DNA from: a virus
DNA length: 61,254 nt
Strand: one strand, 5' to 3'
IMG/VR virus record: IMGVR_UViG_3300032309_001297
Span: 1-61,254 of that record
The translations under genes were made by a program, and so were the position numbers. The notes under the pieces are model-generated. The model saw only the letters and a program-made list of their open reading frames with translations, was not told where the DNA came from and did not search any database. The first letter of the stretch is position 1. Every line of letters begins with the position of its first letter. Below, piece after piece: positions 14,316 through 53,203 of the stretch.

Positions 14316-14677
14316 TGAAAAAGATAGTTGACGTATTTCCTGCTGTTATAAAACTCGCTCCTCCGGGCTCCCTTTCCGACATCACCATGTTAAAAACAAC
14401 TGGAGATGCTCCACAAGGGACAAGGAAGTTGGATAGATGTCGGGCTGTTGTACTTCAAAACACTTTATTGATCGCTGAAGACTCCCCCGAAGGGCCTAGA
14501 ATTGTTTTCCGTGAGCAGGTAGAGTTAATGGTGCAAGACAAGAAGCTGACTCACATTTTGACCGTTTCAGGCAAGATTATTGCGTTTATGAAGGACGACA
14601 ACTGCGGTTGTGGGTCTAGATTGCGTAGTTGGAACCCATATGGGGGCTTTATTACTTCAGGAGAGGACCCTAGTTGA
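14315..14677 (+). CDS. Unknown protein, 120 aa
   Basis: GTG 14315 overlaps the last base of the upstream TAG. The protein is beta-rich (FPAVIKLAPPGSLSDITMLK ... CRAVVLQNTLLIAEDS). The C-terminal end has DDNCGCGSRLRSWNPYGGF. Proteins of this type precede the membrane protein and portal in several actinophages; no function is known to me. Its end overlaps the next TTG start. Confidence 0.6.
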   Translation: MKKIVDVFPAVIKLAPPGSLSDITMLKTTGDAPQGTRKLDRCRAVVLQNTLLIAEDSPEGPRIVFREQVELMVQDKKLTHILTVSGKIIAFMKDDNCGCGSRLRSWNPYGGFITSGEDPS

Positions 14678-27000: not shown

Positions 27001-27532
27001 TCCTCAAAGTGTTGCAGACAAGATTGCTAGCGAAACAAAAATTAATTATTTCAACCACACTTGGCAGTCTTCTACTCCAAACGGAACTGATGCTATGGCA
27101 GACTTCTTATTTGAAATATTCCAATCTGGAGGCTTGTATTCAACAACTAATCGTTGGATGGATGGAATTAATATCAACGGTATGTCTTCCAAAGCAGATG
27201 TAAAAGCCAACGGTGGAAACTATATGTTTACTCATCAATCATCCTCCCCCAGCAGCGGTTCAAGCTTAAGCTTCTCGTTTGATGCAAGAAAGCTTCTTCG
27301 TAGAATGGACTTCTACAAGAATGGCGGAGATAAGTATGGACAGCTCGTATCTGACGCAGAAGATGTAATCGAAAAACTTAAGAGTGGCGGCGGCGAGATT
27401 ATGTGGAAGAAGAATCTTTCATGGGCTGATCTCTCAAGCGTAAGTATGTCTGATGCTGTCCGAGCAGCTCTTGTGAAGAAACTTCTTGCTGCTGGATTAC
27501 CTGAATACGCACAGATTGTGAAAGGTAAATAA
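18089..27532 (+). CDS. Giant multidomain virion protein, 3147 aa (DEDDh exonuclease, Nudix-like, kinase-like)
   Basis: GTG 18089 shares one base with the upstream stop. The N-terminal 200 residues contain DLLPIAHPRSTR and RDRKGRFAEMGGGLR. Long acidic linkers and repeated small beta modules follow (KAGD/KPGD ... GYYPGH, twice near residues 810-1060, and a third related one near 1410-1470). A DEDDh exonuclease has D1120/E1122 (HIDFES), HN1212LPFD1216 and H1273-x4-D1278, so all catalytic residues are present. A Nudix-like domain lies near residues 1575-1720 with KWGFPGG and EEFSEEVGG (1635-1643); the first Glu of the Nudix box is not obvious. A kinase-like domain of HipA/PI-kinase type lies near residues 1743-1975, with K1776, NNYD1855, D1862N and D1875PGG. 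The C-terminal 600 residues are unassigned. The position between portal and protease suggests a packaged, possibly injected protein. Confidence 0.8.
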   Translation: MNINYPKKPALRLSSIEEQTQKINAAALELVEKANAEFSGTRTVTKKAALTVISRSLAKNESDAFSVRKHKALTELSHYITLAQSNRALTASVENTDLLPIAHPRSTRDNDMTLASLMQHRARWIIDDPEIQDDKARTLLASALTSHPASVEYEYAITHLSTMPQGMVPQYALLAALGDGNSSAARRARAMLQRRDRKGRFAEMGGGLRALIKRAANGLVQSLTGTAVSQGIDGDTFDMELPDGKLVRVPASSAEAIKAILPSMQTKDGYSKTPAKVSIGDPVINEADLEVVDAPDGFKLDETWSPSADDVDYYGTKIDLGKKFTDDAYDVIKFDVANASAKDKFEAAQQKEAEGQNIVTVGKGKNNWVDETKPVYFVSRRDGKDKTFAAVQSWADVQDFITQDEPKYDKGEGVDPSKSETKKELLKKVKTGIEKVAEKKAAEEAKAEKPVAKLPEKQEDFDYPEGSYKLKQGVEYTPEGPIDGQVSPDYTDDPAELAQKFETDELVEALTQSVTGTKKSPATGFGGLPFEAGDEIVPAEAIYNALKEKGEDADSILGDIYSGGKQAEISEATPEVSDEIKDALGDEDVLDAPLPNGEEDPATLPPLLEGLSEDEKANYAETGDYTKYLPKNSTDEAPSGYTELNEDPFNNSEAVLPEDAPEGFSFNPVDIANSYNKEDLKGELRRALEPGNEMPGYGLISQETPEGEDYVGYVPGEAIRDALQLQGEDTNALINEIYAEGADNEPTSQETQDALEGEAPETTQGTPTEQEAPAESTEQTPSNEAGPEATTVNTGEPTGPARLKAKVSELKAGDVTTNDFFTIENIYSDADSESAKPGSVWVEGYYPGHATQKTKLWYPDTEIEVYRNVDAPQKGDLPELSKPFAKDYDPQKKVYKDEALGIFVPKDAAAREQYLADVEEYNKNLEAAKAMWSAPEGLEEWQTPDAAPVYTPENPIGISEVASVDVKPGDITFKKEWGQDYYEFFVVEGVSTDEEGNAVVQGYYPGHESQTKTWKGTTKITVIKGATPPEAGTKPALERPKKDDPDFAEKKAAFDAAKKESAATWTAPIDLEASAPQPKAKKPTPPAFQGDKLKAIAEAAGGDAKKFKELLAQEEVVHIDFESTGGFNKPSPIQVALVKTKNGEVIDSKVLFMNPEKPLDSFYTDKDPAEVLKDSEGNPISDAFLEKQMSQEDAFKQIMEFMGENPIVSAHNLPFDGEILKRYTDQFGMDYKPAGEIDTLSLARKVINGGNGDHVLQAVAARYDLAGPDTDWHDASVDVAVLPGILDNLLDEMAITNSGIDSLDVDKAKVDFDAANAQYTASKSKKAKADTELVMAKAFADGMAGKDVPTSEELGSALPKELPTSDELSPATTPKPSEVSDNDSQIESVLGGLVSNNWVSENENTTNVGKIAVEDMKPGDFISAQFGGYHEIISVEPDPDNDKKMVVTRRLLANGKEYKSSWIKYQAYEVRRRNEPIEIAQPVDSTPETPEVEQPILETDEAPEKESSAGTWNGYNIAQGTDGVYYAENISSTDVQALRNGQLTPPQLPFFAPLGGGNDQETGEGYFFSVNGKRFWGKYGAAGALVRRKNSDGVYEYFLAKRSSGLSQEGGKWGFPGGAHKDQTIAKSVGGTAKEEFSEEVGGDLSSLEPKYIHQNFVGPEWAYDTYVFEVGPKQLSDLTPKDGENSEIGWFTADQINQMAADGKLHTNFADSAQAIFDLSEDNTKGPEKPTPAESKSTEVKAFDTTNWKKIAGQAGSNEGAFYVDPDTGEQYYVKKPKSDKHAANEALASALYAEAGTKIGRVYLGKDSKGNIVLVSPLVENSNKDFADKKNDANILKSAQEDFAVDAWLNNYDSVGLAYDNMLTVDGDVYRVDPGGSLLFRAQGKDKSKELTDDVKSIDTLRDGSINSESNDIFGSMTDEQIAESAKKVQAISPEKIDQLVDQAFPDDAETASFLKEKLKARREDLINRFGLEPQEEEASEPVQSVSDSNPVIPLDPSGDLAQQLNDAVGKKVSFLYNGKDRVATVIPSKEGTAQIWENPKNGKTNIRLLDSDGAVKNFTISSIESNSEGFEAPKEASKPSTEAPSGWTKEGNYTWKKDGWVVTEDTEGNLTASNPKVSGLIFGNSWDEVQTKIDAEDVTPSIPQVATPEEIKAIAESPDGGITPSANDNIEPLNPVDTPLTETEKSTSLSEAEKQKVLDEVSNLAEKLFGSKGKTKDLLEALKGQEGVDSDLIDSIISDIDAPKTAPDATPEEKITSDLTQSLTPEDGDEDVPAEVLESITTEELAAEAKTPMDPDLIWKKVQEEYSSTTLPNGHIVVFSQTNGTDKFDVVVKRNSDNTFSVYHRITGPDGTSKVKNLKGRWHSFTALKSRIESEKWKAKVTPSKVKAKAKTETPGSILPAAIPTQKGSYVSADGVSIVKVGQKVKDVKTGKTGVVISLKDELITGKSKLKPEGYTYTDVAKIKWDDTGKKNWKVSTYLEILDGPSGGGSGGTKTTPTPTPSSPSTPSTPEVDATPAEIPTYDAPSLQGAKALKDVEALAAKKNENEHMSYFGADSYSDYKEFLKGDFVKDPESKNLVPGIIVSNASTNANDQDLTSHGVITKTNSKTGEVEVTYFDGPLAGKGQTLKSDKVWSREKFLTVEQSKELGIDVDTTLLEKSRAASKAKGEKYAKELAEKKKKAQQEAEAKALKSKFEVNGPGFALQTPNAPADWSKSPVDNAPSLADALKVAKGDNPLEAAKGATVLADSDAIEDLELRVQKVTAKGGKESIRVTFTLTDWAANPRVAEMIDDASIDKSSGLDIDKWEKQPDGSLKYSKKWDSSSVDQSGTGVTYSGKAGKGTFKLHRAKKGAEKANFFNHASNSSNSVAFHNKVEIILPANATEKDIEDAIKAMGGVDSVRPATKEDIKGLVENKMIWLYGRSTDGTKNYAGELRDKILQQIKDDYGFTADDVEIVVDKEGRGRISYLAPQSVADKIASETKINYFNHTWQSSTPNGTDAMADFLFEIFQSGGLYSTTNRWMDGININGMSSKADVKANGGNYMFTHQSSSPSSGSSLSFSFDARKLLRRMDFYKNGGDKYGQLVSDAEDVIEKLKSGGGEIMWKKNLSWADLSSVSMSDAVRAALVKKLLAAGLPEYAQIVKGK

Positions 27533-27849: not shown

Positions 27850-28132
27850 CGAAGCAACAGTTGATTTAGAACAATCTGTGGAAGCGCTTACAAACCCAGA
27901 TAGCGGTGAATTAGTTGCTGTTGTTTTCACTGTAAATGGTTTGGGAACTTTCGCTCGCTCTAATAGTAAGTGGATTCCGATGAACTCTGAAGAAGCAGAT
28001 AAATATGATGGTTCAAACATCACTGACATTAAAGTAGATATGTGGAAAGACCTCGTAGATAAGTTTGATTCTGGAGAAAAGATGAATGAAACTGATCTTG
28101 AGGCTTATGCAGCCCCAGAAGAGACGGAGTAG
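27836..28132 (+). CDS. Unknown protein, 98 aa
   Basis: ATG 27836 is chosen because GAGGAGG lies at 27824-27830; the longer version lacks an RBS. It contains a small beta sheet (GELVAVVFTVNGLGTFARSNSKW) and an acidic helical tail. It lies four bases before the GTG start of the protease gene, so it is translationally linked. Function unknown. Confidence 0.65.
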   Translation: MAISNEATVDLEQSVEALTNPDSGELVAVVFTVNGLGTFARSNSKWIPMNSEEADKYDGSNITDIKVDMWKDLVDKFDSGEKMNETDLEAYAAPEETE

Positions 28133-28136
28133 AACT

Positions 28137-31100
28137 GTGGAATACGCAGGCAGAAAAGGCAATCTAGTTCTCTTTATTAAAGAGGGCTTTGGTGCAGTTG
28201 TTGACGAAGCAGCAAACTCTGTTGTTCAAGTTGGCAATGAAAAAGCACTTATAGCTTCTATTGACTGGAACTCTTATGGCAAGAAGCCAAAAGACACAGC
28301 TGTAGAGCTTGCTAATGCTGCCATGACGGATTTAGATATCCGTGTTTTTGCTAGTAATGACCGTATGTACACAATTCCAGATGCTGTAGTTGCCGAAGCA
28401 AAGCGTGGTCTTGAGTGGCGCAAGGAGGAGAACCGTGGTGGAACACCAGTTGGTCTTAATACTGCTCGCACACTTGCTCGTGGTGGTCAGATTGGTATTC
28501 GCAAGGTCCGTCATATTGCAAAATACTTCCCACGTCACGAAGTAGATAAAAAAGGCAAGGGATATAAGCCTGGACAAGACAATTACCCATCAAATGGGCG
28601 TATTGCATGGGCTCTTTGGGGTGGAGACGCTGCAGAACGTTGGGCATCAGCAATTGTTGATAGAGAAAACAAGAAGAAGGCAAATACTTCTATTACTGCA
28701 GGTCTTGGAATGCATGACTATGCACCAATGGACCGAGTTGATTACAACTCATTTATGCCATCAGAGATGGAACCAGAATTCTTTATTCGCATCCGTCTAG
28801 ATGGTTCAGGCATTGACCGTCTCTACAAGGTAGAAGATGACGGAACATGCAAGTTCTGGGACGACGGAGCTTGGGATGACTTAGGAAACATTGAGAATGA
28901 TTTCCACACATATGACAAGTCTCTTGATGACCCATATGACAAGGTGCAAAAGATTCACACACCTGTAGACCGAGAGTCTGCAATTAAAATTTCAGCAATG
29001 CTTGATAGCACTCCAATGGAATACATCAATGTTCAAAAAATTGACTTTGACGAAACAGATATGTTTGAACAAGCAATTCCAGAACTTGACTGGAAGTTTA
29101 TTGATCAACTTAGCTCAGATGAAGTTGAAGAAACTGACGACTGGGATATGGATGGTCTTCTAGCTGCAGGAGAAGCACCTTCAACACCAGCAGCGTCTGG
29201 AGATGGCAACTACACACCTGAAGAGCGTTCTGAAAATGCTCAGACTCAAGTACGAGATAAGTTAGGAAAGTTTGCTAAGAACGGCTCTACCGTTGTTATT
29301 GGTGGAGACTACAAATACAAGGGTCAAATCACTGCAATGGACCCTGCAAAGCAGGAAGTAAGTGTTCTTCTTGAAGATGGCAGAACTGTCAATGTTCCTG
29401 CTAATACAACTCAAGAAATCAGTACTTTCCAGCCTGTCTCACAATCAAATTTTCCAGCAAATAACCTAGATTTCTCAGGCATTTTGGGAGAACCTCGTGT
29501 AGCAATTGATGAGCCTCTTGCTCAGTTGCCTGGTCGTCTTCCACCTCTTAGTGCTCCAGATACCAACCTTCTGGTTAGCGACTGGGGAGCTTGGGTTGCA
29601 GGTCAACGCCTCTCACCAGAATACTCTGGCGACCCAATCCCACCAATGGTTTATAAAGAAGAGCCTGATATGAACACTGTTTTAGGTGAGTACTACAAAG
29701 GCTCTTTCAATCCCGATGGAACTACTAAGCCTGGATTTAACCCTGCAACAACACCAAATGCTTATAACGAACCACTTCTTCGTGATTGGTTAGATAAGAA
29801 ATACGCTAATAAAGCTGGTGATGTTGGCTACCACAATCGTGGTTGGTATGTTCCGCCTGCTAGCGACTATGTAAAATTTGATGACAAACTTGATCGTAAA
29901 AAAGTTTATACTAAAGAGAATAAAGCTGCTTGGGATAGACGATTTGATGTATCTAACTCAAACGAAAAAACTCTTATTGCTGCTGCAGCAGAGGAAGCTA
30001 TAACACCAGAGAATTCTGATGTTCCTCCAATGTTCTTAGCTATTGTTGCACCAGATGATCCTCAGGCTGTAATGGAGTTAGTCTCTGTTGTTCCTGCAAA
30101 TAAGAAGAGCAACACACCAACAACATTCAAGCGCAAGCCAGGCAAGTGGGAACGCGATGATCGTATTCTCAATGACCTCAATAGCCCAACACCTCCCCCT
30201 GTTATCGTTTTAGATAACACTAATCTTGCTGAGGTAACAAAGCAGATTGATGGCGGAGTCGTGGTTGCTTCACTTCGATTCCCTGCTGCTCTAGCTCTGT
30301 CAAATAACCCAGTAATTGCTGCTCTTGTAGCTGCAGGAGGTTTAGATAGAAACCGTGGCAACGCGGAGAAACTTCGTCGCTATTGGACAACTGGTAAGGG
30401 CGGTCTCAAGATTCGCTGGAACACTCCAGGAGACTGGACTCGTTGCCATAAGTATCTTGCTAAATACATGGGCCCTCGCGCTAAAGGCTATTGCGCTCTT
30501 CGTCATAAAGAAATGACGGGAATGTGGCCAGGAGATAAGCGCAATCCAGGTATGAAAAAGAAGTCTTTAGTTTCATCTATTGAAGCAGTTAAGACTGAGG
30601 AAACTATTGTCGGAGAATTCACTCTTCATGCTCGTGCAGAAGCTGCTCGCTCACGCATGATTGGTAGAGAAGGCGTTGTAGCTTCCGAGCATGGTTCAAA
30701 ATTCATTATTCCTTTGGTTATTCCAGAGAATATGGAATCAGGTGACGGACGTATCTTTGAGTCTGGCTCTATCAATACAAGAGATTTGCCACTGCCACTT
30801 CTATGGCAGATTAAGACAGGTCAGGGCCATGATGGTTCTGTTGTTGTCGGTCAAATTACTCACATGGAAAGAACAGACCAAGGCATTGGAAATGCTTATG
30901 GTGTATTCGACCTCGGGGAGTATGGCAAAGAAGCTGAACGTCTAGTTCGCAACGGATTTATCCGTGGAGTATCTGCTGATATGGACAAATTTGAAGCAGA
31001 TGAAGAAGAGGCAAAAGAGCCTACTGGCGACGATTCTGAGGATACAAGGAAAATCGAGTCAGGTAGAATAGTTATCAAAAGTGCTCGTGTAATGGCAGTA

Positions 31101-33404
31101 ACCATCGTGCCTAAGCCAGCATTTCAAGAGTGTTATATCCAAATCGTTGATGATGGCAACGATATTCAGGAGGATGAAGTGTTACCAGACGGAGTATATG
31201 TCGAAGGGATGAGTCCACTAGACGCATCTGCGTTGGTCGCTTGTGGAATGGTTGCTGGAGCAATTCCAGTAGAACCTCCTACATCATGGTTTGACAACCC
31301 AAAGCTAACTAAAGCAACCCCACTCACAGTTACAGATGAGGGTCGCGTATTCGGTCACATTGCTGCTTGGCATGTAGACCACATTGGAATGTCTTTTGGA
31401 ACACGACCACCTCGTAGTCGTAGTAAATTTGCTTATTTCCACACAGGAACACTTCGCACTGCTGAAGGTTCAGATATGCCTGTTGGACAACTAACTTTGG
31501 CTGGCGGTCACGCTGGTCTAGAAGCTTCTGCAGAGGAAGCAGTTCGTCACTATGACGACACTGCATCAGCTTTCGCAGATGTGCACGCAGGAGAGGATGC
31601 TTACGGAATTTGGGTTTCTGGCGCTTTACGCCCAGGCACAACCCCCGAGCAAATCCGCGCTGCCCGTGCCTCAGCACCATCGGGAGACTGGCGTCCAATC
31701 AAGGGTCACCTTGAGCTTGTCGCAGTATGTCAAGTAAATGTTCCAGGCTTCCCGATTGCTCGTGCTCGTGTTGCATCAGGTCAGGTAATGGCCCTTGTTG
31801 CAGCTGGTGCCAATGTTTTGGCTCAGCTAAAGCACGACCCTCTAGCAGAACTTAATAAGAAGATTGATGCCCTTGAAGCTAAGCAAAATCAACCACTTGT
31901 TGCTGCTGCTGAAGAAGCAAAGGCTCGTGTAGCAAGCATTCAAATGTCAATGCTTGAAGAGAAAAAAGCAGAACTTGCCGCTCGTGTTAAGAAGGCAAAA
32001 GATGAAGAATCTGACTACATGATTCAGATGATTGATGACAACACTCAAGAACTTGCTGTTGTCCCACGCCGTGTTCGTGAGCGTCTAGCTCGTGAAAAGA
32101 AGGCTATGCCAGATGGCTCATTTCCAATTAGAAATGTAGAAGACCTAAAGAACGCAATTCATGCATATGGTCGCGCTAAGCCAGGAGCAAAAGCTGCTGT
32201 TCGTAAGCACATCACACGTCGTGCTCGTGGTCTTGACCGTCCAGAGCTGATCCCAGAAACATGGAAAGTTGCATCAGCAGAATTTGGTATTGACGATATG
32301 GCGCAAGACCTACGCGAGCGCATTGCGGAAGCAATGACAGCTGCAGGTGGGTTGGACCGTAACCGGGGAAACGCTGAAAGGCTTCGTCGCTACTGGACAA
32401 GAGGTGAAGGAGCCGCAAAGATCCGTTGGGGTGCCCCAGGGGACTGGAAGCGTTGCGTCAAGCATTTAGCTAAATATATGGGTCCTCGTGCGAAGGGCTA
32501 TTGCCAGCTTCGCCATAAGGATGCATTAGGTTTTTACACATCAACTCATGCTAAAAAAGACCGAAAGAACCTTTCAGAGATAGAAACACTAAATCTGGAA
32601 CTTTTCGGAGCACTTTTTTCAAACATTAATTCTTTTGAAACTATGGTCAGTCCAGAGGATATGGCTAAGGACATCGACAGTATTTTGATGGAACAAGATG
32701 ATGATTTTGATGGTAGCTGGGAACCAAAGGAAGAGATTGTCATTCTTTTGATGGAACCAGAAAACCATATGGAAGATTCAGAAGAGGAACCAGCTGAATT
32801 TGCTATTGACCCAGAAATTAAAGACCTCACACCAGAGGAAATTGATGCTCTAAAAGTAGAGAAAATGAACCGTGCAAAAAAGCCTACCGAGACAGGAAAA
32901 TATACTCCTGACACTCAGCCTAGAGATGCACAGGGCAAATTCCGCTTAGTTCTAGCTCGTCTTAAGTCTGACTTAGGCACTGCTGGTCTTTCTCGTGTAG
33001 TTGAAAAGGTTGAAGAGGCTGAAAACCTTGACAACGCTGGAGATTACAAGAAATCAGCTAAGGCTGCAGACGATTTGATGGGAATTATTGACCGATTGGA
33101 CACAAAAGCATTGAATCCTGAAGCTTTAGAGAACATTAGAAACAGTTCCGCCGAGCTTGGAAAGGTTATTGCAAACCTTCCTTTTGCCTTTGGAGAGGCT
33201 GCCACCAAGATTAGATTCTCAGATGTTCCTCCAGCACTTCAAAAGCTCATGGAAGATATGATTAAAAAGGTTGAAGATAAAATTGGTCAGGAAGATGCCG
33301 ATATAGCAACTGAAGAATTGAAGAGTTTTATGTCTGGTGCTGATTATTACAACCAGTCAGAGATTTCCTCACAAATGGCGAAGCTTTTAAGGCTTCTTAC
33401 CTAA
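28137..33404 (+). CDS. Capsid maturation protease within a 1755-aa multidomain protein
   Basis: GTG 28137 is just after the upstream TAG. About residues 101-178 hold a widespread phage domain (GLNTARTLARGGQIGIRKVRHIAKYF ... NGRIAWALWGGDAAERWASAI). Residues about 734-801 and 1402-1465 are two copies of a NRGNAEKLRRYW ... KYMGPRAKGYCALRHKE domain. About residues 824-1004 hold the HK97-type (S78-like) prohead protease, with LPLLWQIKTGQGHDG (candidate His) and NGFIRGVSADM (candidate Ser). About residues 1018-1225 hold the GRVFGHIAAWHVDHIGM ... RPPRS extension often found after actinophage proteases. YTPE/YTPD ... RDxxGKF segments occur twice. It probably matures the scaffold-capsid protein downstream and perhaps the giant protein upstream. 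Confidence 0.8.
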   Translation: MEYAGRKGNLVLFIKEGFGAVVDEAANSVVQVGNEKALIASIDWNSYGKKPKDTAVELANAAMTDLDIRVFASNDRMYTIPDAVVAEAKRGLEWRKEENRGGTPVGLNTARTLARGGQIGIRKVRHIAKYFPRHEVDKKGKGYKPGQDNYPSNGRIAWALWGGDAAERWASAIVDRENKKKANTSITAGLGMHDYAPMDRVDYNSFMPSEMEPEFFIRIRLDGSGIDRLYKVEDDGTCKFWDDGAWDDLGNIENDFHTYDKSLDDPYDKVQKIHTPVDRESAIKISAMLDSTPMEYINVQKIDFDETDMFEQAIPELDWKFIDQLSSDEVEETDDWDMDGLLAAGEAPSTPAASGDGNYTPEERSENAQTQVRDKLGKFAKNGSTVVIGGDYKYKGQITAMDPAKQEVSVLLEDGRTVNVPANTTQEISTFQPVSQSNFPANNLDFSGILGEPRVAIDEPLAQLPGRLPPLSAPDTNLLVSDWGAWVAGQRLSPEYSGDPIPPMVYKEEPDMNTVLGEYYKGSFNPDGTTKPGFNPATTPNAYNEPLLRDWLDKKYANKAGDVGYHNRGWYVPPASDYVKFDDKLDRKKVYTKENKAAWDRRFDVSNSNEKTLIAAAAEEAITPENSDVPPMFLAIVAPDDPQAVMELVSVVPANKKSNTPTTFKRKPGKWERDDRILNDLNSPTPPPVIVLDNTNLAEVTKQIDGGVVVASLRFPAALALSNNPVIAALVAAGGLDRNRGNAEKLRRYWTTGKGGLKIRWNTPGDWTRCHKYLAKYMGPRAKGYCALRHKEMTGMWPGDKRNPGMKKKSLVSSIEAVKTEETIVGEFTLHARAEAARSRMIGREGVVASEHGSKFIIPLVIPENMESGDGRIFESGSINTRDLPLPLLWQIKTGQGHDGSVVVGQITHMERTDQGIGNAYGVFDLGEYGKEAERLVRNGFIRGVSADMDKFEADEEEAKEPTGDDSEDTRKIESGRIVIKSARVMAVTIVPKPAFQECYIQIVDDGNDIQEDEVLPDGVYVEGMSPLDASALVACGMVAGAIPVEPPTSWFDNPKLTKATPLTVTDEGRVFGHIAAWHVDHIGMSFGTRPPRSRSKFAYFHTGTLRTAEGSDMPVGQLTLAGGHAGLEASAEEAVRHYDDTASAFADVHAGEDAYGIWVSGALRPGTTPEQIRAARASAPSGDWRPIKGHLELVAVCQVNVPGFPIARARVASGQVMALVAAGANVLAQLKHDPLAELNKKIDALEAKQNQPLVAAAEEAKARVASIQMSMLEEKKAELAARVKKAKDEESDYMIQMIDDNTQELAVVPRRVRERLAREKKAMPDGSFPIRNVEDLKNAIHAYGRAKPGAKAAVRKHITRRARGLDRPELIPETWKVASAEFGIDDMAQDLRERIAEAMTAAGGLDRNRGNAERLRRYWTRGEGAAKIRWGAPGDWKRCVKHLAKYMGPRAKGYCQLRHKDALGFYTSTHAKKDRKNLSEIETLNLELFGALFSNINSFETMVSPEDMAKDIDSILMEQDDDFDGSWEPKEEIVILLMEPENHMEDSEEEPAEFAIDPEIKDLTPEEIDALKVEKMNRAKKPTETGKYTPDTQPRDAQGKFRLVLARLKSDLGTAGLSRVVEKVEEAENLDNAGDYKKSAKAADDLMGIIDRLDTKALNPEALENIRNSSAELGKVIANLPFAFGEAATKIRFSDVPPALQKLMEDMIKKVEDKIGQEDADIATEELKSFMSGADYYNQSEISSQMAKLLRLLT

Positions 33405-38978: not shown

Positions 38979-39485
38979 ATGCCAATAGTGAATGTATCTG
39001 CAGTAGATGATGGAGCTAAAAACTTAGCTCTGTTTCTTCAAGAAGTCCTTAACCGAGTTATCACCTGTTACGGATCATTTGATATGCCATTACCTGCTCG
39101 TCGTTACTGGACTTTTGGTACACCAGCAGTTGACTGCGAACAGCTTGTTGTTTCTATGATTCAAATGTATGTAGGAAGTCCAGGAGACGAAGCAACTGAC
39201 CCTCGCAGATGTAATGACCCTCGTAGCGCTACTTTGAATATTTCTGTTTCTCGCGCAGTTCCTGTATCTCAACAAAACGGTAATCCACCGCCTGCAGATG
39301 ACATTCAAGCTGCTGCTGTGGTATCGGCATATGATGCTTGGGTATTAATGGAAAGCATTCAACAGCTAGATGCATGGGGAGATATGGGTGGCTACGGTCT
39401 TGGGGTTATTGCAACCGTAGATGCGGCTGAGCCAGAAGGCGGATTCTCAACTACTCGTATGACTATCACGATGGCGATTCCATAA
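38979..39485 (+). CDS. Head-tail joining / tail terminator-type protein, 168 aa
   Basis: ATG 38979 with GAAGGAAATG. It contains ALFLQEVLNRVITCYGSFDMPLPARRYWTFG and ends YGLGVIATVDAAEPEGGFSTTRMTITMAIP, the typical end of tail-terminator or connector proteins that finish with a beta strand. Its place between adaptor and HK97 gp10-like genes supports a head-tail joining role. The stop overlaps the next ATG. Confidence 0.6.
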   Translation: MPIVNVSAVDDGAKNLALFLQEVLNRVITCYGSFDMPLPARRYWTFGTPAVDCEQLVVSMIQMYVGSPGDEATDPRRCNDPRSATLNISVSRAVPVSQQNGNPPPADDIQAAAVVSAYDAWVLMESIQQLDAWGDMGGYGLGVIATVDAAEPEGGFSTTRMTITMAIP

Positions 39486-39868
39486 TGCCAACTGTAGTCT
39501 TTCGTGAACCAGCATTTAGTAAGTATAAAAACTCTCCTAGTGGGGATGTTGGTAGGTATTTAGCTAAAAAAGGTTTACTAATTACTGCTGCCGCTAAACG
39601 CCAAGTAGGAGTAAATACTGGAGCACTTCGTGCATCAATTCATATGAGGCATTTTGGCGACACACGAGGACAATATGTTCGGATTGGCTCGTCTTTGCCT
39701 TATGCAAGGCTCCATCACGAGGGAACTAGACCTCATTTAATTAGACCTAACACAAAACAAGTTCTGAAATTTGTCACTAGAGGGCAATTGGTCATTACAC
39801 ACTTGGTGAGACACCCTGGTACAAGGCCAAATCGCTACCTAACAGACAATCTCAGGTTGGTAAAATAA
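39485..39868 (+). CDS. HK97 gp10-like head-tail joining protein, 127 aa
   Basis: ATG 39485 overlaps the upstream TAA. The core ITAAAKRQVGVNTGALRASIHM ... YVRIGSSLPYARLHHEGTRPHLI ... HPGTRPNRYLTDNL is diagnostic for the HK97 gp10-like family: V-x-T-G-x-L-x-x-S and Y-A-x-x-x-H-x-G, then H-P-G-x-x-x-x-x-Y. These proteins help complete the neck/tail. Length is normal. Confidence 0.85.
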   Translation: MPTVVFREPAFSKYKNSPSGDVGRYLAKKGLLITAAAKRQVGVNTGALRASIHMRHFGDTRGQYVRIGSSLPYARLHHEGTRPHLIRPNTKQVLKFVTRGQLVITHLVRHPGTRPNRYLTDNLRLVK

Positions 39869-39924
39869 GCAGGAATGATTTATTACAACAGTGATAAATC
39901 AAAGACACAAGATAAGGAAAAAAC

Positions 39925-40275
39925 ATGACAAATAGATTCAAGGACTTTGGGTCGGGTGGAGATGTAAATACCGCCCCCCTCTCGTTCAAAATTCATGGTG
40001 AGGAGTTTCATTGTCGTCCGACAATTCAAGGTAAATCTCTCCTCAACATCGTAGCCAATACCGATATTAATGACGGTATGGGTATGGCTAAAGTAATCAA
40101 TGATTTCTTCGAAGTTTGTTTACTAGAAGAAAGCTTTACGCGTTTTGAGTCCCTTCTAACAAATCCAGACAAAATTGTCTCGGTCGAGACCTTGGGTGAA
40201 ATTACCGCATGGCTCGTAGAGGAGTATTCAAGCCGCCCTACGCCGCAGCCAGAGCCTTCCTTGAGTGGGCAGTAG
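39925..40275 (+). CDS. Tail assembly chaperone, upstream frame, 116 aa
   Basis: ATG 39925 with AAGGAAAAAA. The protein (PLSFKIHGEEFHCRPTIQGKSLLNIVA ... FFEVCLLEESFTRFESLLTNPDK ... WLVEEYSSRPT) is the usual first tail assembly chaperone (G-like) of actinophages, encoded just before the tape measure. It ends in the overlap with a second frame, as expected for chaperone pairs. Chaperones coat the tape measure during tail assembly. Confidence 0.75.
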   Translation: MTNRFKDFGSGGDVNTAPLSFKIHGEEFHCRPTIQGKSLLNIVANTDINDGMGMAKVINDFFEVCLLEESFTRFESLLTNPDKIVSVETLGEITAWLVEEYSSRPTPQPEPSLSGQ

Positions 40276-40676
40276 ATCTCTGGCCTTACGTTAATGGGAA
40301 AGCAATTATGAGTGGACTAAGACTAGCTGAGATGGAGGCTTCAGACATGTGTGATGTTTTGCATTACTTCATGGAAGAAGACCTATCCGCATCTACTGCT
40401 GAACAAGCAGAAGCCAAGTCTGAAGCTCGTTCTGTGATCTATAGAACGTTGTATGGAAAAACTTATAAATATGCAATGAGCAAGTCATCAAGTAGTGGAA
40501 GTTCTTCTTACGCTGCTGATGGAAGTTCGCTCCCAGATGGTGGATTTTATGGTGACTTAGATGTTGAGCCATTTGATCCAACAAGAAACGTACAAAAACC
40601 TTATATCCCGCCAACAGAGTTAGACGAAGACAGTTACCTGCCTTTCGGAAAAACTCTAGACGCACCATTAAATTAA
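40209..40676 (+). CDS. Tail assembly chaperone, downstream (-1) frame, 155 aa
   Basis: This frame is -1 relative to the upstream chaperone and open only from 40200. It starts RRGVFKPPYAAARAFLEWAVDLWPYV and continues with helices and a Ser/Gly-rich stretch. In most siphoviruses this part is made by a programmed frameshift from the upstream gene. Here the 76-base overlap shows no classical slippery heptamer, and an ATG exists at 40209, so separate initiation or an unusual slip are both possible. Confidence 0.7.
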   Translation: MARRGVFKPPYAAARAFLEWAVDLWPYVNGKAIMSGLRLAEMEASDMCDVLHYFMEEDLSASTAEQAEAKSEARSVIYRTLYGKTYKYAMSKSSSSGSSSYAADGSSLPDGGFYGDLDVEPFDPTRNVQKPYIPPTELDEDSYLPFGKTLDAPLN

Positions 40677-40703
40677 CTATAAATACGAAGGAGGTGAGAG
40701 CGC

Positions 40704-42077
40704 ATGGCTGTTGTAGGTGATGCTTATATTGTCGTACGCGCTCTCACCAACCGTATTGATAGTGATATTAGAAATGGTTTTAGAGGCACGGACAGAATTG
40801 GTGAAGAAGAAGGAAAGAAAATTGGTGATTCTTTCAGTAGAGGTTTAAGCTCTGCTGGAGGAAACTCTAGTGTATTCAGTGCAAAATTTCTTAATGAAGC
40901 AGAGCAAGCAAGGCAGGGATTTAATAAGCTAATCCAAACTGGTTATTTCTTAGGACCAGCTCTAGCAAGTGTTGCTGGTGCTGTTGGTTCCTTAGGTGCA
41001 TCTCTTGTCACTCTTGTATCTGTATTAGGAGCTGCTGCTCCTGCAGCAATTGTTTTGGTTGGGGCATTAACTGCTGTAGCCCAAGCTGCAATTGTAGCTA
41101 AAATAGCCTTTGCTGGAGTTGGAAAAGCTATTGGAGCTGGTCTAAAAGCTGCAAAAGGTTCTGCAAAAGATACAGATGCACTAGCAGATGCAATCCGACG
41201 TACTGAAGATGCAAATCGGAGATACTTTAGACTTCTTAATGAAGGTAGACCAGAGCTTTTAATACAACTTACTGAACGTCAAAAAGACGCAGAAGATGCT
41301 CTTGCTAATTCAAAAATCTCAGCTACAAGAGCTGAGCGAACATACAAAGAGTCTCAAGAAAAAACTAAAAAAGCTATTGAGAATCTTAATAAAGCTCGTG
41401 AAGATGCAAAAGAAAAACTCCAACAACTTCGTTTTGAAGTTGAAGGCGGTGCTATCTCTGAGAAGAAAGCTCGCCTTGAGTTTGAAAAAGCCCGTGACTC
41501 ACTCCAGCGTGTTCAAGATCTTCCACCAAACTCTCGCGCTCGTCAAGAAGCAGAGCTTGCTTTTGCTGAAGCTGACCTAAACCTTCGCAAAGCAATTGAC
41601 AAAAACAAAGATCTTAAAGCAGAAGAGAAAAAAGCTACTGCTGCTGGTGTTGAAGGTGCTCAAGCAGTTAAAGATGCAGTGCTTTCACGGCGTGATGCAG
41701 TTAACGCTGAGGCTGACGCATTAATTAATAGCAAACAGGCTAAAAAGGGTGTACTTGATGCAGAAAAAGCTCTTGCTGAAGCGACAGCGGAAGCTGGTAA
41801 TAATCCAAATGTTCAAAGCAAAGCACTACGAGACTTTGACAGACAAGTAGCTGACGCAAAGCGTGCTGTAGAAGATGCAAAAAGAGATGAAGCAAAGGCT
41901 CGAAAAGGCTCGGGAACTGATGCTTATGCAGATGCCTTAGCTGGTTTATCTCCTGAGGCTAAAGCTTTTGTTAAATATATTGTTAGCCTTAAAGGTGCGT
42001 TTGAAAGATTAAAAGCTGCTGCTGGTAAAGATTTATTCCCTAAACTAACAACAGCAATAAAAAATCTTGTTACATAG
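40704..42077 (+). CDS. Tape measure protein, N-terminal part (stops at an in-frame TAG)
   Basis: ATG 40704 has a strong AAGGAGGTGA site. Residues about 75-150 are hydrophobic (GSLGASLVTLVSVLGAAAPAAIVLVGAL ...). A long Lys/Ala/Glu coiled coil fills about 165-420. The frame stops at TAG 42075-42077 after KLTTAIKNLVT, yet the same frame remains open from 42078 to 44417 with tape-measure-like sequence. One gene of 1238 codons (including both stops) is therefore expected. As drawn, the product would be 457 aa and lack the C-terminal membrane and repeat regions. Confidence 0.75.
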   Translation: MAVVGDAYIVVRALTNRIDSDIRNGFRGTDRIGEEEGKKIGDSFSRGLSSAGGNSSVFSAKFLNEAEQARQGFNKLIQTGYFLGPALASVAGAVGSLGASLVTLVSVLGAAAPAAIVLVGALTAVAQAAIVAKIAFAGVGKAIGAGLKAAKGSAKDTDALADAIRRTEDANRRYFRLLNEGRPELLIQLTERQKDAEDALANSKISATRAERTYKESQEKTKKAIENLNKAREDAKEKLQQLRFEVEGGAISEKKARLEFEKARDSLQRVQDLPPNSRARQEAELAFAEADLNLRKAIDKNKDLKAEEKKATAAGVEGAQAVKDAVLSRRDAVNAEADALINSKQAKKGVLDAEKALAEATAEAGNNPNVQSKALRDFDRQVADAKRAVEDAKRDEAKARKGSGTDAYADALAGLSPEAKAFVKYIVSLKGAFERLKAAAGKDLFPKLTTAIKNLVT

Positions 42078-42101
42078 GGCAACTTAAAAGTATTTGATGG
42101 A

Positions 42102-44417
42102 TTGCTTCAGGGAACTGGATCAGCTATTGGTGATGTCGCAATTGAGATTTCAAAGGCTGTAACAGAGACAGAAAACTTTAAAGCTCTTCAAAGTGTTTGG
42201 AAAACTAACGACAGACTTATCAGAAAACTTGGTAAAGCTTCTGGAAACCTTTATGGTGCATTCATCAATCTTCTTGATGCTGCTGGACCTCTCATTGATA
42301 AGTTTGGTGACTGGATTGTAAAAGTCACAGAAACTTGGGAACAGACAGTAAAGGCAAAAAAAGCTACTGGTGAACTTACCGATAACTTTAATAAAGCTGG
42401 AAAAGTTGCAGGTCGAATTGGTGGAATTTTAAAGAATTACTTCAAGGGTTTCCAAGAAATTGGAAAAGCCGTAATGAACGGTGGTGCTGGAGAGCGTCTC
42501 CTTAAGTACTTTGAAGATGCTAGTAAGCGCTTTGCTGACCTTATGAAGCAAATGAATGGAGATGGCTCTCTCGGTAAGTACTTTGATAAGGCTACGGAAA
42601 ATGGTCTAAAAGTACTTGACCTTCTTGTAAACATTGTTGCAGAGCTATTAAAACTTGGTGATGATAAAGGTGTTGGAGGGTTTGTTGACTCATTAAGTAG
42701 AGCTGTAGACACATTTGGAGGAATTGGTGCAACTCTTACTGATGCTGGTCCTTCATTAGGTCTTTTTGTTGAAGAATTTGCCAAGCTTATTAAGAACCTC
42801 ACGGAGAGCGGTTCTATAGATACATTTTTTAAAATCCTAACCAGTGCTCTAAAAATCTTAAATAAAATATTTGGAAACGAACAAGTTCAAGCAGTTATTA
42901 AATTTATAGCTCCAATCTTTGCTATAACACGAGCTTTTGGTCTTATGTTTAAAGTTTCCAAGTTTGTTACTTTAGGCATAGCTGGAAACTTTATGGCACC
43001 GTTCAGAGCAGTCGGTAAGTTTAAAAAAGCTTTAGCTCCAGGCGGTTCTTTTGATGGACTTCGGCTTAAAGCTATGTATGCCATGGACTCCATTAAATCT
43101 GGTTTTGGGAAACTAAAAACTGCTGCTAGTACAGCAAAAACTAATATTGCAAGTGCACTAACAACTGCTGGGCAAGGTATTAAAGCTGGCGCAACAAAAG
43201 GTTTTGACGCTCTTAAATCAGGATTCTCAACATTAGGAAATGCTGCAAAAACCGCTGCTATGGCAGTTGGAAATGCCTTAAAGAAGATAGTGCTTGCTGT
43301 AGGACGAGCTTTGATGGCTATCGGTCGTGCTTTGATGGCTAACCCATGGATTCTTATTATTATTGCAATAGTCGCTCTTGTTATTATCATCGTTAAAAAC
43401 TGGGACAAGATTAAAGAAGTTGTTGGAGCAGCGGTTGAATGGATTGGTGAAAAAGTAGGAGCAGCTTGGGACTGGATTAAAGAGAAAACCTCTGGAGTCC
43501 TTAGTGCAGTTGTTACCTTCTTTACGGAGCTTCCAGGAAAACTATTAACTGCTATTCAAGGTTTAGCTACTACAGTTTTAGAATTCATTGTTAAATATCA
43601 CCCACTTGCTATTCTTTGGAGACTTATATCTGAGAACTGGGAGTCAATCAAAACTTGGTTTGGTAGTTTAGGTGGGAAGATTAAAGACGCTATTGTCGGT
43701 CTATCCACAACAGTTTCTGAATTTATTTACAAGTATCACCCAATTCTTATTCTTTGGAGACTTGTTACCGAAAACTGGGAAAAGATTAAGACTTGGTTTA
43801 CTGGTCTTCCTACAAAAATTAAAGATGCACTTGTTGGGCTTTCCACAACTGTCTCTGAGTTCATTACTAAATACAACCCAATAACTCTTCTAAAGAAAGC
43901 TGTAGAAGGCGTATGGCCTACTGTATCTTCCTTTATTACATCAAAGCTTGACTCTATTGTCACATTTATTAAGGGTCTTCCTGCAAAAATTGCATCTGCT
44001 GCAAGTGGAATGTTTAACGGATTAAAAGATGCCTTTAAGGGTGCAATCAACTTTATTATTGACAAGTGGAACGGTCTATCTTTTACACTCCCAAGCGCTA
44101 CAGTATTTGGTAAGAAAATTGGAGGATTTACACTTTCAACTCCTGACATTCCAAGACTTGCTATGGGTGGAGTTGTTATGCCTAGTGCTGGTGGAACCCT
44201 TGCCACAATTGGTGAAGCAGGTCGTCCAGAGCGTGTAGAGCCTCTTGATCCAGATGGTTTGTCAAAGCGTGACAAAGCAATTATCTCTATGCTTGCTGGT
44301 AATGGTGCAGGTGGAGCAACTATCAATGTCTATCCATCAGCAGGAATGAACGAGCGTGAGCTTGCAAATCTTGTTTCCAAGCAACTTGCCTACCAGATGA
44401 GAAAGGGTGCTGCATAA
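42102..44417 (+). CDS. Tape measure protein, C-terminal part (same frame, after the TAG)
   Basis: The frame is open from 42078; the first possible start is TTG 42102 without a good RBS, so this is most likely the continuation of the upstream gene. It contains TGSAIGDVAIEISKAV, helices, a strong transmembrane-type segment (NPWILIIIAIVALVIIIVKNW) and three copies of a 46-aa unit (GLxTTVxEFIxKYxP ... WRLxxENWExIKTWF) between about 43560 and 43975. The end (GGVVMPSAGGTLATIGEAGRPERVEPL ... QLAYQMRKGAA) is the characteristic C-terminus of actinophage tape measures. Role: sets tail length and may help DNA entry. Confidence 0.75.
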   Translation: MLQGTGSAIGDVAIEISKAVTETENFKALQSVWKTNDRLIRKLGKASGNLYGAFINLLDAAGPLIDKFGDWIVKVTETWEQTVKAKKATGELTDNFNKAGKVAGRIGGILKNYFKGFQEIGKAVMNGGAGERLLKYFEDASKRFADLMKQMNGDGSLGKYFDKATENGLKVLDLLVNIVAELLKLGDDKGVGGFVDSLSRAVDTFGGIGATLTDAGPSLGLFVEEFAKLIKNLTESGSIDTFFKILTSALKILNKIFGNEQVQAVIKFIAPIFAITRAFGLMFKVSKFVTLGIAGNFMAPFRAVGKFKKALAPGGSFDGLRLKAMYAMDSIKSGFGKLKTAASTAKTNIASALTTAGQGIKAGATKGFDALKSGFSTLGNAAKTAAMAVGNALKKIVLAVGRALMAIGRALMANPWILIIIAIVALVIIIVKNWDKIKEVVGAAVEWIGEKVGAAWDWIKEKTSGVLSAVVTFFTELPGKLLTAIQGLATTVLEFIVKYHPLAILWRLISENWESIKTWFGSLGGKIKDAIVGLSTTVSEFIYKYHPILILWRLVTENWEKIKTWFTGLPTKIKDALVGLSTTVSEFITKYNPITLLKKAVEGVWPTVSSFITSKLDSIVTFIKGLPAKIASAASGMFNGLKDAFKGAINFIIDKWNGLSFTLPSATVFGKKIGGFTLSTPDIPRLAMGGVVMPSAGGTLATIGEAGRPERVEPLDPDGLSKRDKAIISMLAGNGAGGATINVYPSAGMNERELANLVSKQLAYQMRKGAA

Positions 44418-44418
44418 A

Positions 44419-46743
44419 ATGGCTAATCAAGCGCAGGAAAATAATTTTGTAGACCGTGGGTTAATTCCGCTTCCACAGCCACACCTAACTGGCATGAAGC
44501 TTCAAGCCAATATCATTCTTGGCGAATTTATTTTTAACACTATCGATGAGTATGGCGTCACTTGGGTCATAACAAATATCGATGGATGGTGGCGTCATCC
44601 ATCACCAGAAATGCCAGATATCCCTCGTGGTTTTGGTGATGGTTCATACGATGTTCAAGGACGCTATAGCGCAAGAAACTTCACTCTTGAAGGAGTATTT
44701 CTCACTCCAAACCCTTCTTTAGTGGAAGCAGCTCGTGACCGTTTAGTTGATGCTACAAACCTTGTATATCGAGGTGTATGGCTAAAGACTGGTAATGACC
44801 CAATTCGTGCTTCTTTTGTTCGTCTCGGTGGGGATGTAAATATTGACACTGTTAACGCAAGAGGACGCACCGAATTCTCTATCTCTCTTCGTGCTGCAGA
44901 CCCAATTAAATACTCTTGGAATGATACAAACGAAGATGGTTATGACACTGTTGACATTCCAGTTAAGAATTTAACTTTAGGTTATACAGGTTCAGGAATT
45001 GTGACAAACGTTGGAAACTACAACGTTCCTTGCTATTTAGAAGTTACTGGTCCTTTTATAGGTCCAGGTCGAATATTTAACAGAACTACAGAACAACTTA
45101 TTCTTCTCACTCAGGGTTTAAAAGGCAGTATTGTTAACTCTATAATTAACAAGCAGTTGATTTTTAATGTAGACACGCTAGAAGATGTAGCAACTTTAAC
45201 TACCACTACTTCTCATAGATTTACAGTAGGAAATAGCATTTTTGTCTCTGGGCTAGGTTCTCCATTTGATGGTGAGCACATCGTCACTTCAATCCCTACA
45301 GACACCACTTTTACTTACGTTGCTGGTGCGGCATCTATTAGGTCTATATCACACAAAGCTCTTAATTCAAGCGTAGCTACAATTGAGACAACAGCTGCTC
45401 ATGGGTTTACAACTGGTCAACAAGTATTGATCAACGGCGTAGATGCATTGTTTGATGGAACATACACAATTGCCTCAACACCAACTTCAAGCAAGTTTAC
45501 TTATGCAAAGACCCGTGTCCCGCCTAGAACAATTACGGCTAAGGTGCTTGTTTCAAACATTGCAACCTTAACTACATCTGACGCTCATCAATTTATTATT
45601 GGCGAGCAGGTAACTGTTGCTGGAGTAGATGTTAACTTCAATGGCACATACGCAGTTGTTGCTACACCATCTGCAACTGAGTTTAGCTATGCAGCCACTC
45701 GTACTAACGCTCGCTCCGTAATTAACAAGTCTATGGCTGCAGATGTTGTCACATTGACAACTACGGTTCCACATGGTTTTGTGCCTAATGAAATAGTCAA
45801 CATTTCTAATATTGACCTATCTCTTAATGGTGGGTATACCATTACAGCAACTCCAGCTTCAACAACTTTTTCATACAAGCGTCCTCGCGGTACTCAAAAA
45901 AATATCTCAGTAAAAGCTATCTCTTCTAATACAGCTACTCTTACAACTTCAGAGCCTCACGGTTTTGTAGTGGGGGAGAAGGTTGTTGTAGAAAACGTAG
46001 ATTCAACATTTAATGGAACCTACACGATTACTAGCCTTCCAAGTAATTCAACATTTACTTATGCAAAAACCGCTACTGACTTAATTGCTACAACAGTCAC
46101 AGATGCAACTGTAAGAGCTGGAAGCCGTCAGATTAAGTCTCGTCAGTTGGTAGGTAACACCGTAACTATTACAACTGTAAGCACCCATGGTGCAATCCTT
46201 GGAGAGCAAGTAACAATTACAGGTGTTGGTTCCCCATTTGATGGAACCTATACAGTTACATCAATTCCAACAAATACCAGCTTTACATATGCAAAAACAG
46301 ATACAAACGTTGCTTTAGCAGATGTTGCAGGTGCTTTTGTAGAAATGCCAGGAACTATTACATCAACTGGTGTATCACCAGATGGTCTTGCCTCCGTTGC
46401 AGGCTCTCTTGTATTCCAAGCAGCTACTGGAACAGCGAGTGTTTCTGACACAATTGCAAGAATTGCAGCTTCTGGAAAAGCAATCAAAACTAACAACGTA
46501 ACCTTCACTCCAGGTATTAGTGGAGCAACAGCAGTTCTTCAAGCAGATATTCTTGAGATTGATACTCAAAACAGAGAAGTTGCTTTTAACGGAGAGCTAG
46601 AAGGTGCAAGAGGTAGAGTTGATGTTCTTGCTGACTTTATCAAACTCGCTCCAGGAAACAACGAAATTGAGTTTGAAGACACTGGTGCTCCAGAAGGAAC
46701 AGCAAGTCTTCGAGTATATTATCGCTCTGGATGGCTTGGATAA
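44419..46743 (+). CDS. Distal tail/baseplate protein with six tandem beta repeats, 774 aa
   Basis: ATG 44419 is two bases after the tape measure stop; a GTG 44407 start is possible. The N-terminal about 200 residues are a siphovirus distal-tail (Dit-like) domain: LGEFIFNTIDEYGVTWVITNIDGWWRHP ... RYSARNFTLEGVFLTPN ... EFSISLRAADPIKYSWND. Residues about 255-640 hold six repeats of about 60 aa with the pattern A-T-L-T-T-x3-H-G-F-x2-G-x3-x-V-x-G-V-x3-F-D/N-G-T-Y-T-I-x4-P-x3-F-T-Y-A-K. The C-terminus is a beta domain. The repeats may act as Ig-like surface-binding arms. Confidence 0.75.
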   Translation: MANQAQENNFVDRGLIPLPQPHLTGMKLQANIILGEFIFNTIDEYGVTWVITNIDGWWRHPSPEMPDIPRGFGDGSYDVQGRYSARNFTLEGVFLTPNPSLVEAARDRLVDATNLVYRGVWLKTGNDPIRASFVRLGGDVNIDTVNARGRTEFSISLRAADPIKYSWNDTNEDGYDTVDIPVKNLTLGYTGSGIVTNVGNYNVPCYLEVTGPFIGPGRIFNRTTEQLILLTQGLKGSIVNSIINKQLIFNVDTLEDVATLTTTTSHRFTVGNSIFVSGLGSPFDGEHIVTSIPTDTTFTYVAGAASIRSISHKALNSSVATIETTAAHGFTTGQQVLINGVDALFDGTYTIASTPTSSKFTYAKTRVPPRTITAKVLVSNIATLTTSDAHQFIIGEQVTVAGVDVNFNGTYAVVATPSATEFSYAATRTNARSVINKSMAADVVTLTTTVPHGFVPNEIVNISNIDLSLNGGYTITATPASTTFSYKRPRGTQKNISVKAISSNTATLTTSEPHGFVVGEKVVVENVDSTFNGTYTITSLPSNSTFTYAKTATDLIATTVTDATVRAGSRQIKSRQLVGNTVTITTVSTHGAILGEQVTITGVGSPFDGTYTVTSIPTNTSFTYAKTDTNVALADVAGAFVEMPGTITSTGVSPDGLASVAGSLVFQAATGTASVSDTIARIAASGKAIKTNNVTFTPGISGATAVLQADILEIDTQNREVAFNGELEGARGRVDVLADFIKLAPGNNEIEFEDTGAPEGTASLRVYYRSGWLG

Positions 46744-51376: not shown

Positions 51377-53098
51377 ATGACCCAGCGACGAACGGACCTA
51401 TCAGGTGTACAACTACACCTTGTCAACAATGTACAAGAAGCAGAAAAATTCTTGCATTGGCTTGGTGAGCGACGTCCCCATAACGCTATCGCAATTGACA
51501 CAGAAACTGGTGAGCATCTAGGACGCCCTCGTGCAGATGCGCTATCTCCTTGGCATGGTGATTTGCGTCTTGTTCAAGTAGGCGATGGCATGACTGGTTG
51601 GTCAATTCCTTGGGATGAATGGTCTGGTGTTTTCTACGAAGCAATGGACCGATTTGATGGACCTATTGTGTGCCACAATATTGCATTCGAAGCCCGATGG
51701 TTTGCTATTAAATCGCGTTGGCAGATGCCATGGGAACGTGCACACGACACGATGATTATGGCTCACATTGTTGACCCACTTGGTTCTGGTGCATTGAAGA
51801 GCCTTGCATCCACTCACATTGACCCAATGGCTGCACACTTGCAAAGCAAACTTGATGAAAGCCTTGCAACTAATGGCTGGACTTGGGGCACTGTCCCTAC
51901 ATCATTTGAACCTTATTGGTCTTACGGCGCTCTTGACACAGTTATCACGATGCGTCTGTGGGAGATGTATTGGGAGAAGTGTGGTCCTGAAGGTCCGTAC
52001 CACAAGGCTTATGAACTTGAGATGGCTACACGCAAAATTGTTACTCGTATGGAGATTAACGGTGCTCGCGTAGATGTCGAGTATTCAAAAAAGAAATATG
52101 AAGAGCTTCTTGACTACACCGAAAAGGTAAAGCTTTGGGCTTATAACAAGTACGGAGCTTCAATTACAAGCAACGTTCAACTTGTAAAGATTCTTGAAAA
52201 CCTTGGTGCTGATATTACAGAGTTCACACCATCTGGTCAGAAGTCCGCTGGTGCAGACCAACTTAAGCAATTAGCAATTGCTGGAAACGAAGAAGTTAAA
52301 AACCTTGCAGAGACTGTCTTGCAGCAACGCAAGGCTGACAAACTTGCTAACACTTACTTCCTCAACTTTATGAATAAGCATGTCAATGGCTTTGTACATC
52401 CATCCGTAAAAACTCTTGGTGCTCGCACCTCTCGCATGTCTATTACTGACCCAGCGTTGCAGACTCTTCCTAAAGGCGATGCCACTGTGCGCCGTGCGTT
52501 TATCCCAAAGGATGAGGACCATGTATTGATTACCTCAGACCTTGACCAAGTTGAGTTCCGTATGTTTGCCTCTCTTTCTGCAGATGAGAATTTAATTAAA
52601 CTTTTTCATATTGCAGACCAAACTGGCTCTGATCCATTTACCGAAATCGGTCGTCAGGTTTATCAAGACCCAACGATGCAGAAATCAGATAAGCGACGTA
52701 ACCTCATTAAGGGTGTTGTCTACGGTCGTCTCTACGGTGCTGGAGTGGCTAAGCAAGCGCTTACTGCTGGAGTTCCAGAGCATCAGATGCGTGAAGTATC
52801 AGACTCGTTTGACCTCAACTATCCAGGAATGATGTCATTCCAAAAACAGATTGACAACATTGGTCAACAAAGATTCCGCAACGAAGGTCAAGGATATGTT
52901 TATACATGGACTGGTCGTCGTATCCCTTGCGATGATGACCGCACTTACACACTTGTGAATTATCTGATTCAAGGTGGAGCAGCAGAGATTTTTAAGAGTA
53001 ACTTAGTCAAGCTTGACGCAGCAGATTTAACAGATTATTTAATTGTTCCAGTGCATGACGAAATTGTTTTACAAGCCCCTCGTAAAGAGGCAGAATAA
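51377..53098 (+). CDS. polA: Family A DNA polymerase with 3'-5' exonuclease (truncated by an in-frame TAA)
   Basis: ATG 51377 with AGACAGAGGAAAA. The N-terminal exonuclease has AIDTETGEHLG (about residue 38) and CHNIAFEARWF (about 100). The polymerase has motif A (LITSDLDQVEFRMFA), motif B (KRRNLIKGVVYGRLYGAG) and motif C (IVPVHDEIV, about residue 557). The stop TAA 53096-53098 falls 14 codons after motif C. The same frame continues for 34 residues typical of the family's C-terminus (VRECMTTTEGWAVPLTADV ...). Whether the truncated enzyme would be active is unknown. Role: phage genome replication. Confidence 0.85.
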   Translation: MTQRRTDLSGVQLHLVNNVQEAEKFLHWLGERRPHNAIAIDTETGEHLGRPRADALSPWHGDLRLVQVGDGMTGWSIPWDEWSGVFYEAMDRFDGPIVCHNIAFEARWFAIKSRWQMPWERAHDTMIMAHIVDPLGSGALKSLASTHIDPMAAHLQSKLDESLATNGWTWGTVPTSFEPYWSYGALDTVITMRLWEMYWEKCGPEGPYHKAYELEMATRKIVTRMEINGARVDVEYSKKKYEELLDYTEKVKLWAYNKYGASITSNVQLVKILENLGADITEFTPSGQKSAGADQLKQLAIAGNEEVKNLAETVLQQRKADKLANTYFLNFMNKHVNGFVHPSVKTLGARTSRMSITDPALQTLPKGDATVRRAFIPKDEDHVLITSDLDQVEFRMFASLSADENLIKLFHIADQTGSDPFTEIGRQVYQDPTMQKSDKRRNLIKGVVYGRLYGAGVAKQALTAGVPEHQMREVSDSFDLNYPGMMSFQKQIDNIGQQRFRNEGQGYVYTWTGRRIPCDDDRTYTLVNYLIQGGAAEIFKSNLVKLDAADLTDYLIVPVHDEIVLQAPRKEAE

Positions 53099-53203
53099 AT
53101 TAAAAAGATTGTTCGTGAATGTATGACAACAACAGAAGGATGGGCCGTCCCACTTACAGCAGATGTAGACGGACCACTTGAAAATTGGGGACAGAAATAC
53201 TAG
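53099..53203 (+). pseudogene. Detached C-terminal end of the DNA polymerase frame
   Basis: The 34 codons from ATT 53099 to TAG 53201 are in the same frame as the polymerase and contain the expected PolI ending (IVRECMTTTEGWAVPL ... WGQKY). No start or RBS supports independent translation. Changing TAA 53096 back to a sense codon (GAA would read E-I-K-K) would restore the full-length enzyme of about 608 aa. Confidence 0.75.

Follow-up and report, generated by a model that had tools for sequence, protein, structure and literature searches.

Does an in-frame stop codon in the DNA polymerase gene of a phage contig reflect a recoded codon, a broken gene or a fault in the sequence? The question is raised by a TAA in the polymerase gene of the window, meaning the whole stretch of DNA analyzed here, a virus contig of 61,254 bases. 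It extends to a TAG in the tape-measure gene of the same contig (Table 1). The TAA is real in the contig sequence and private to this contig. On balance, we read the polymerase as the ordinary family A replicase of a phage from a freshwater actinophage group, and both stops as isolated G-to-T consensus errors. We infer the technical cause of the stops from comparisons with related contigs. Two stops in two essential phage genes that are private to one contig give no grounds for proposing a new genetic code.

Table 1. Features of the two interrupted genes, in window coordinates.
Feature	Position	Strand	Remark
Tape-measure protein, N-terminal part	40704..42077	+	Ended by private TAG 42075-42077
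Remaining tape-measure frame, open until TAA 44415	42078..44417	+	One frame together with the first part in all aligned relatives
Second G-to-T difference, E465D	42098	+	23 bp from the tape-measure stop
Family A DNA polymerase (DNA polymerase I-like) ORF with 3'-5' exonuclease domain	51377..53098	+	Stops at residue 573
In-frame TAA, private to the contig	53096..53098	+	Glu (GAA/GAG) in 80/80 relatives
Last 34 polymerase codons, conserved, with the usual stop position of the family (TAG)	53099..53203	+	

Gene order and proteins of the window match Actinomycetia phage DSL-LC01 (OQ999401), a 129-kb metagenome-assembled genome from Dishui Lake (PMC10611076). Because of this match, the window probably represents about half of a DSL-LC01-sized genome. 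The contigs most similar to the window are G001/L002 (76 kb, matching from position 32820 onward), L109 (96% identity over 39323-45345), L111 (95-97% over 5.3-26.7 kb), L124 and L107. Several further arrangements are recorded as observations in their own right. Between the portal and protease genes lies a 3147-residue ORF (18089-27532) in which residues 1117-1281 match an RNase_T exonuclease domain. A single ORF of 1772 residues (28086-33404) spans what in DSL-LC01 are three distinct "capsid maturation protease" genes and contains a motif of about 60 residues (GGLDRNRGNAE...KYMGPRAKGYC..RHK) twice; at least its first 1413 residues are also in one open frame in G002 (L097). A large terminase gene was not found in the window. 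DSL-LC01 has one about 3 kb upstream of its portal gene, G001 and G005 have one elsewhere on the minus strand, and the location 11-1369 of L095 was noted alongside these.

The TAA lies in the frame opened at 51377, 11 residues past the HDE of motif C (residues 560-562), and is followed by 34 further sense codons before the TAG at 53201-53203. When an unknown residue is put in place of the stop, the rest of the frame aligns with the polymerases of relatives through the last residue (...ENWGQKY). Both the truncated and the read-through frame match the Pfam domain DNA_pol_A (PF00476) above its curated cut-off of 34.3 bits. The truncated frame covers profile positions 6-347 of 381 (173 bits) and the read-through frame positions 6-380 (197 bits). 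The preliminary description had placed the TAA after motif C and taken the continuation for a family A C-terminus, which the read-through match to position 380 of 381 bears out. Its reading of a polymerase cut 34 codons early needs a small correction: the TAA, its coordinates and the conserved continuation to the TAG at 53201 stand, but the loss amounts to 35 residues, namely the replaced Glu codon and 34 more. Directly after the polymerase gene lies a dCMP/cytidine deaminase gene (PF00383, 53206-53526) with an open frame. G001 has no deaminase there and DSL-LC01 carries its deaminase upstream of the polymerase. A link between the polymerase stop and the downstream deaminase was considered and rejected, as L107 aligns through the deaminase region yet has an open polymerase end.

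The truncation would have structural consequences. When the intact relative L002 is modeled with AlphaFold (mean pLDDT 82), residue 574 falls within a helix (569-582) that is followed by a strand (597-601) and a last short helix. W589, P592, W604, K607 and Y608 are among the residues invariant across 23 relatives. The truncated protein thus departs from a complete family A C-terminus after motif C: its profile match ends at 347 of 381, the helix is cut and the strand is lost. With the last palm strand gone, activity is expected to be abolished or severely reduced. The preliminary description had wanted a check on whether the truncated protein keeps its C-terminal helix; judged by the model of the intact relative, helix 569-582 would be cut.

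The relatives are uniform at the polymerase site. Where the window has the TAA, all 80 IMG/VR polymerases encode Glu, and no internal stop occurs in any of them; Glu 574 remains invariant when DSL-LC01 is added to the comparison. The stop is the sole residue among the 608 of the window polymerase that is absent from every relative. Against G001, the gene differs by 96 synonymous and four non-synonymous codons, the stop being counted among the four. As read from these alignments, the surroundings of the stop are under strong purifying selection. The earlier proposal that the TAA arose from a Glu codon by one G-to-T change agrees with the GAA or GAG found in relatives. L107 and L002, the contigs closest here, carry GAG and are separated from TAA by one additional third-base G-to-A change; other relatives have GAA. 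Searches with exact-context sequence patterns found no other contig with the same stops. Degenerate patterns recovered L107, L108 and L109, with GAG in L107 (polymerase) and L109 (tape measure); L108 is the G001 contig, which has GAG as read from L002. No relative of the window polymerase was found in GTDB host genomes.

The tape-measure TAG is confirmed as well and replaces E458. Glu occupies this position in L109 and G001, and the frame is open in all aligned relatives. L109, the closest tape-measure relative (96% nucleotide identity), has an open frame with GAG at the site, as the suggested origin of the TAG from GAG by a G-to-T change would have it. Over positions 41784-42427, the window differs from L109 at two bases only: each of 42075 and 42098 is a T where L109 has G. 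The two changes are non-synonymous, while other isolated differences are mostly synonymous. Given a G-to-T share of 7/125 among differences in the tape-measure gene, two of two by chance has P ~0.003, a post hoc figure that serves as a guide only. The probability of two G-to-T changes within 23 bp, likewise computed after seeing the data and a guide only, is ~0.07. A stop with a neighboring private G-to-T change in an otherwise identical stretch suggests a local error or lesion.

Compared with G001, 26 of 28 genes are without an internal stop. ORFs of L111, L124, L109 and L107, mapped onto the window beyond its relative-poor first 4 kb, revealed no other broken sense gene. Across genes shared with G001, L111, L124, L109 and L107, no other sense-strand stop or truncation was found in recognized genes, the flagged cases being antisense or overlapping ORFs. 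Among 2906 invariant amino-acid columns in testable genes, the window departs at three, namely two I-to-V replacements and the polymerase stop. Private substitutions were counted in trios of the window with L109 and G001, with L111 and L124, and with L107 and G001. G-to-T or C-to-A changes make up 25 of 528 window-private substitutions (4.7%), compared with 5-11% for relatives in the same comparisons. Open genes, near-clean invariant columns and this low share thus argue against both general decay and a genome-wide oxidation signature. The decaying genome of the preliminary description, which should show several broken genes and relaxed selection, finds no support: the other shared genes are open and the polymerase has no other private residue. 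Of its sequence damage or assembly error, an isolated fault or lesion at each of the two sites survives, whereas genome-wide G-to-T damage does not, since the count it had proposed gave a share no higher than in relatives. Unselected G-to-T errors behind both stops would predict about 11 missense changes across the coding sequence (5.7 per stop). About two of these would be expected within invariant columns and none was observed, which is not decisive.

Private stops evidently do occur in this contig collection. Unique relatives at 60% identity or more show two clear internal stops in 217,720 aligned codons (~1 in 109,000 codons), the remaining listed stops sitting at variable protein ends. 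L046 carries a private GAA-to-TAA change at position 14440 in a PD-(D/E)XK nuclease gene where its twin L047 (99.97% identical) has GAA, and L015 a private TTG-to-TAG change at position 15331 in a RecA-like gene. Given this background, the two stops in 16,896 counted codons of the window exceed the 0.16 expected (P ~0.01, or 0.03 conditional). Consensus errors in turn are rare in the collection, because one-strain contigs assembled from different samples often agree without any difference over 7-22 kb. At 2 in ~218,000 codons, the background rate of the group's IMG/VR contigs is a useful reference where such stops are claimed as recoding.

Isolated error is the reading we favor, if not by far. 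The polymerase TAA would be a G-to-T error, a miscalled or oxidized base fixed in the consensus at a site that was probably thinly covered, and the tape-measure TAG would have arisen likewise. The polymerase gene would presumably be intact across the virus population. Artefacts from 8-oxoG yield G-to-T changes (PMC5521083). The uniform Glu of the relatives and the stop as the sole private polymerase residue argue for error, and the L046 stop is the same kind of change with an intact twin. The lack of a genome-wide G-to-T or C-to-A excess and the rarity of consensus errors in the group speak against it. These same clean substitutions and rare errors lend weight to two real nonsense mutations of very recent origin, carried by the genome or sub-population that was sampled; this could then be a defective genome that depends on intact relatives for replication, or a dead molecule that was sequenced. 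Recent null mutations rank directly behind isolated error and are quite conceivable. Other contigs do carry private stops at the background rate, and the loss of function expected from the model of the intact relative, with its cut helix and removed strand, would suit such a genome. Yet two essential genes struck without any other lesion is improbable at that rate (P ~0.01), and the paired G-to-T changes in the otherwise identical tape-measure stretch better fit a local technical cause.

That the stops are read through by a suppressor tRNA, recoding or programmed readthrough to give full proteins is very unlikely. Both stops do sit at Glu codons with conserved downstream frames, and the window leaves much of the genome uncovered, with room there for a suppressor tRNA. 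Against this, neither stop is present in any relative and the terminators of the 44 annotated genes are TAA (23), TGA (13) and TAG (8). Interruptions affect just two of the 43 genes in correct frame, whereas recoded phages carry dozens of internal stops (PMC10607447; PMC11210395), with dozens of genes affected, for example 41 ORFs in phAss-1 (PMC10607447). Instead of many conserved genes broken by one same stop, the window has two interruptions by two different codons. Recoding of TAA and TAG as Glu was rejected, as both serve as normal terminators and only two genes are affected. Programmed readthrough was also rejected, as RNA folding around both stops was no better than in shuffles. Scans of the window, of G001 and of loci from 13 other relatives found no tRNA genes, and the tRNAs of DSL-LC01 are for Thr, Pro and Arg only. 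The preliminary description was right to discount a recoded codon, with TAA and TAG in normal use and no suppressor tRNA visible in the loci scanned. A narrower variant, with both stops real and read as Glu or another residue through a suppressor outside the window in ambiguous use beside normal termination, is less probable still. An adaptive truncation, with a functional short polymerase and two-piece tape measure, is just as improbable: the exonuclease region and motif C are retained and an in-frame TTG (42102) and ATG (53123) follow the stops, but conserved residues in the last 34 codons are lost, no clear Shine-Dalgarno sequence was seen by eye directly upstream of the possible restarts, and no relative has the arrangement.

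Stop-recoded phages (tables 15 and 4) likewise have in-frame stops within conserved genes; the window differs in having one TAA and one TAG, both also normal terminators, with no suppressor tRNA seen. The Klenow fragment of E. coli DNA polymerase I (8oo6, 1d8y) shares its fold with the model of the intact relative (TM 0.77-0.79), and its sequence can be aligned with the polymerase up to the last residues ENW.Q at ~20-25% identity. Compared with Klenow, the window polymerase ends before the last long helix completes and is without the last strand. DSL-LC01 and the IMG/VR relatives (L002-L081) are 72-99% identical over the window polymerase, with an identical C-terminal sequence. They largely share the order of tape measure, minor tail proteins, polymerase, RuvC, helicase, nuclease and RecA-like genes, and their polymerase frames, free of the stop, reach the normal C-terminus.
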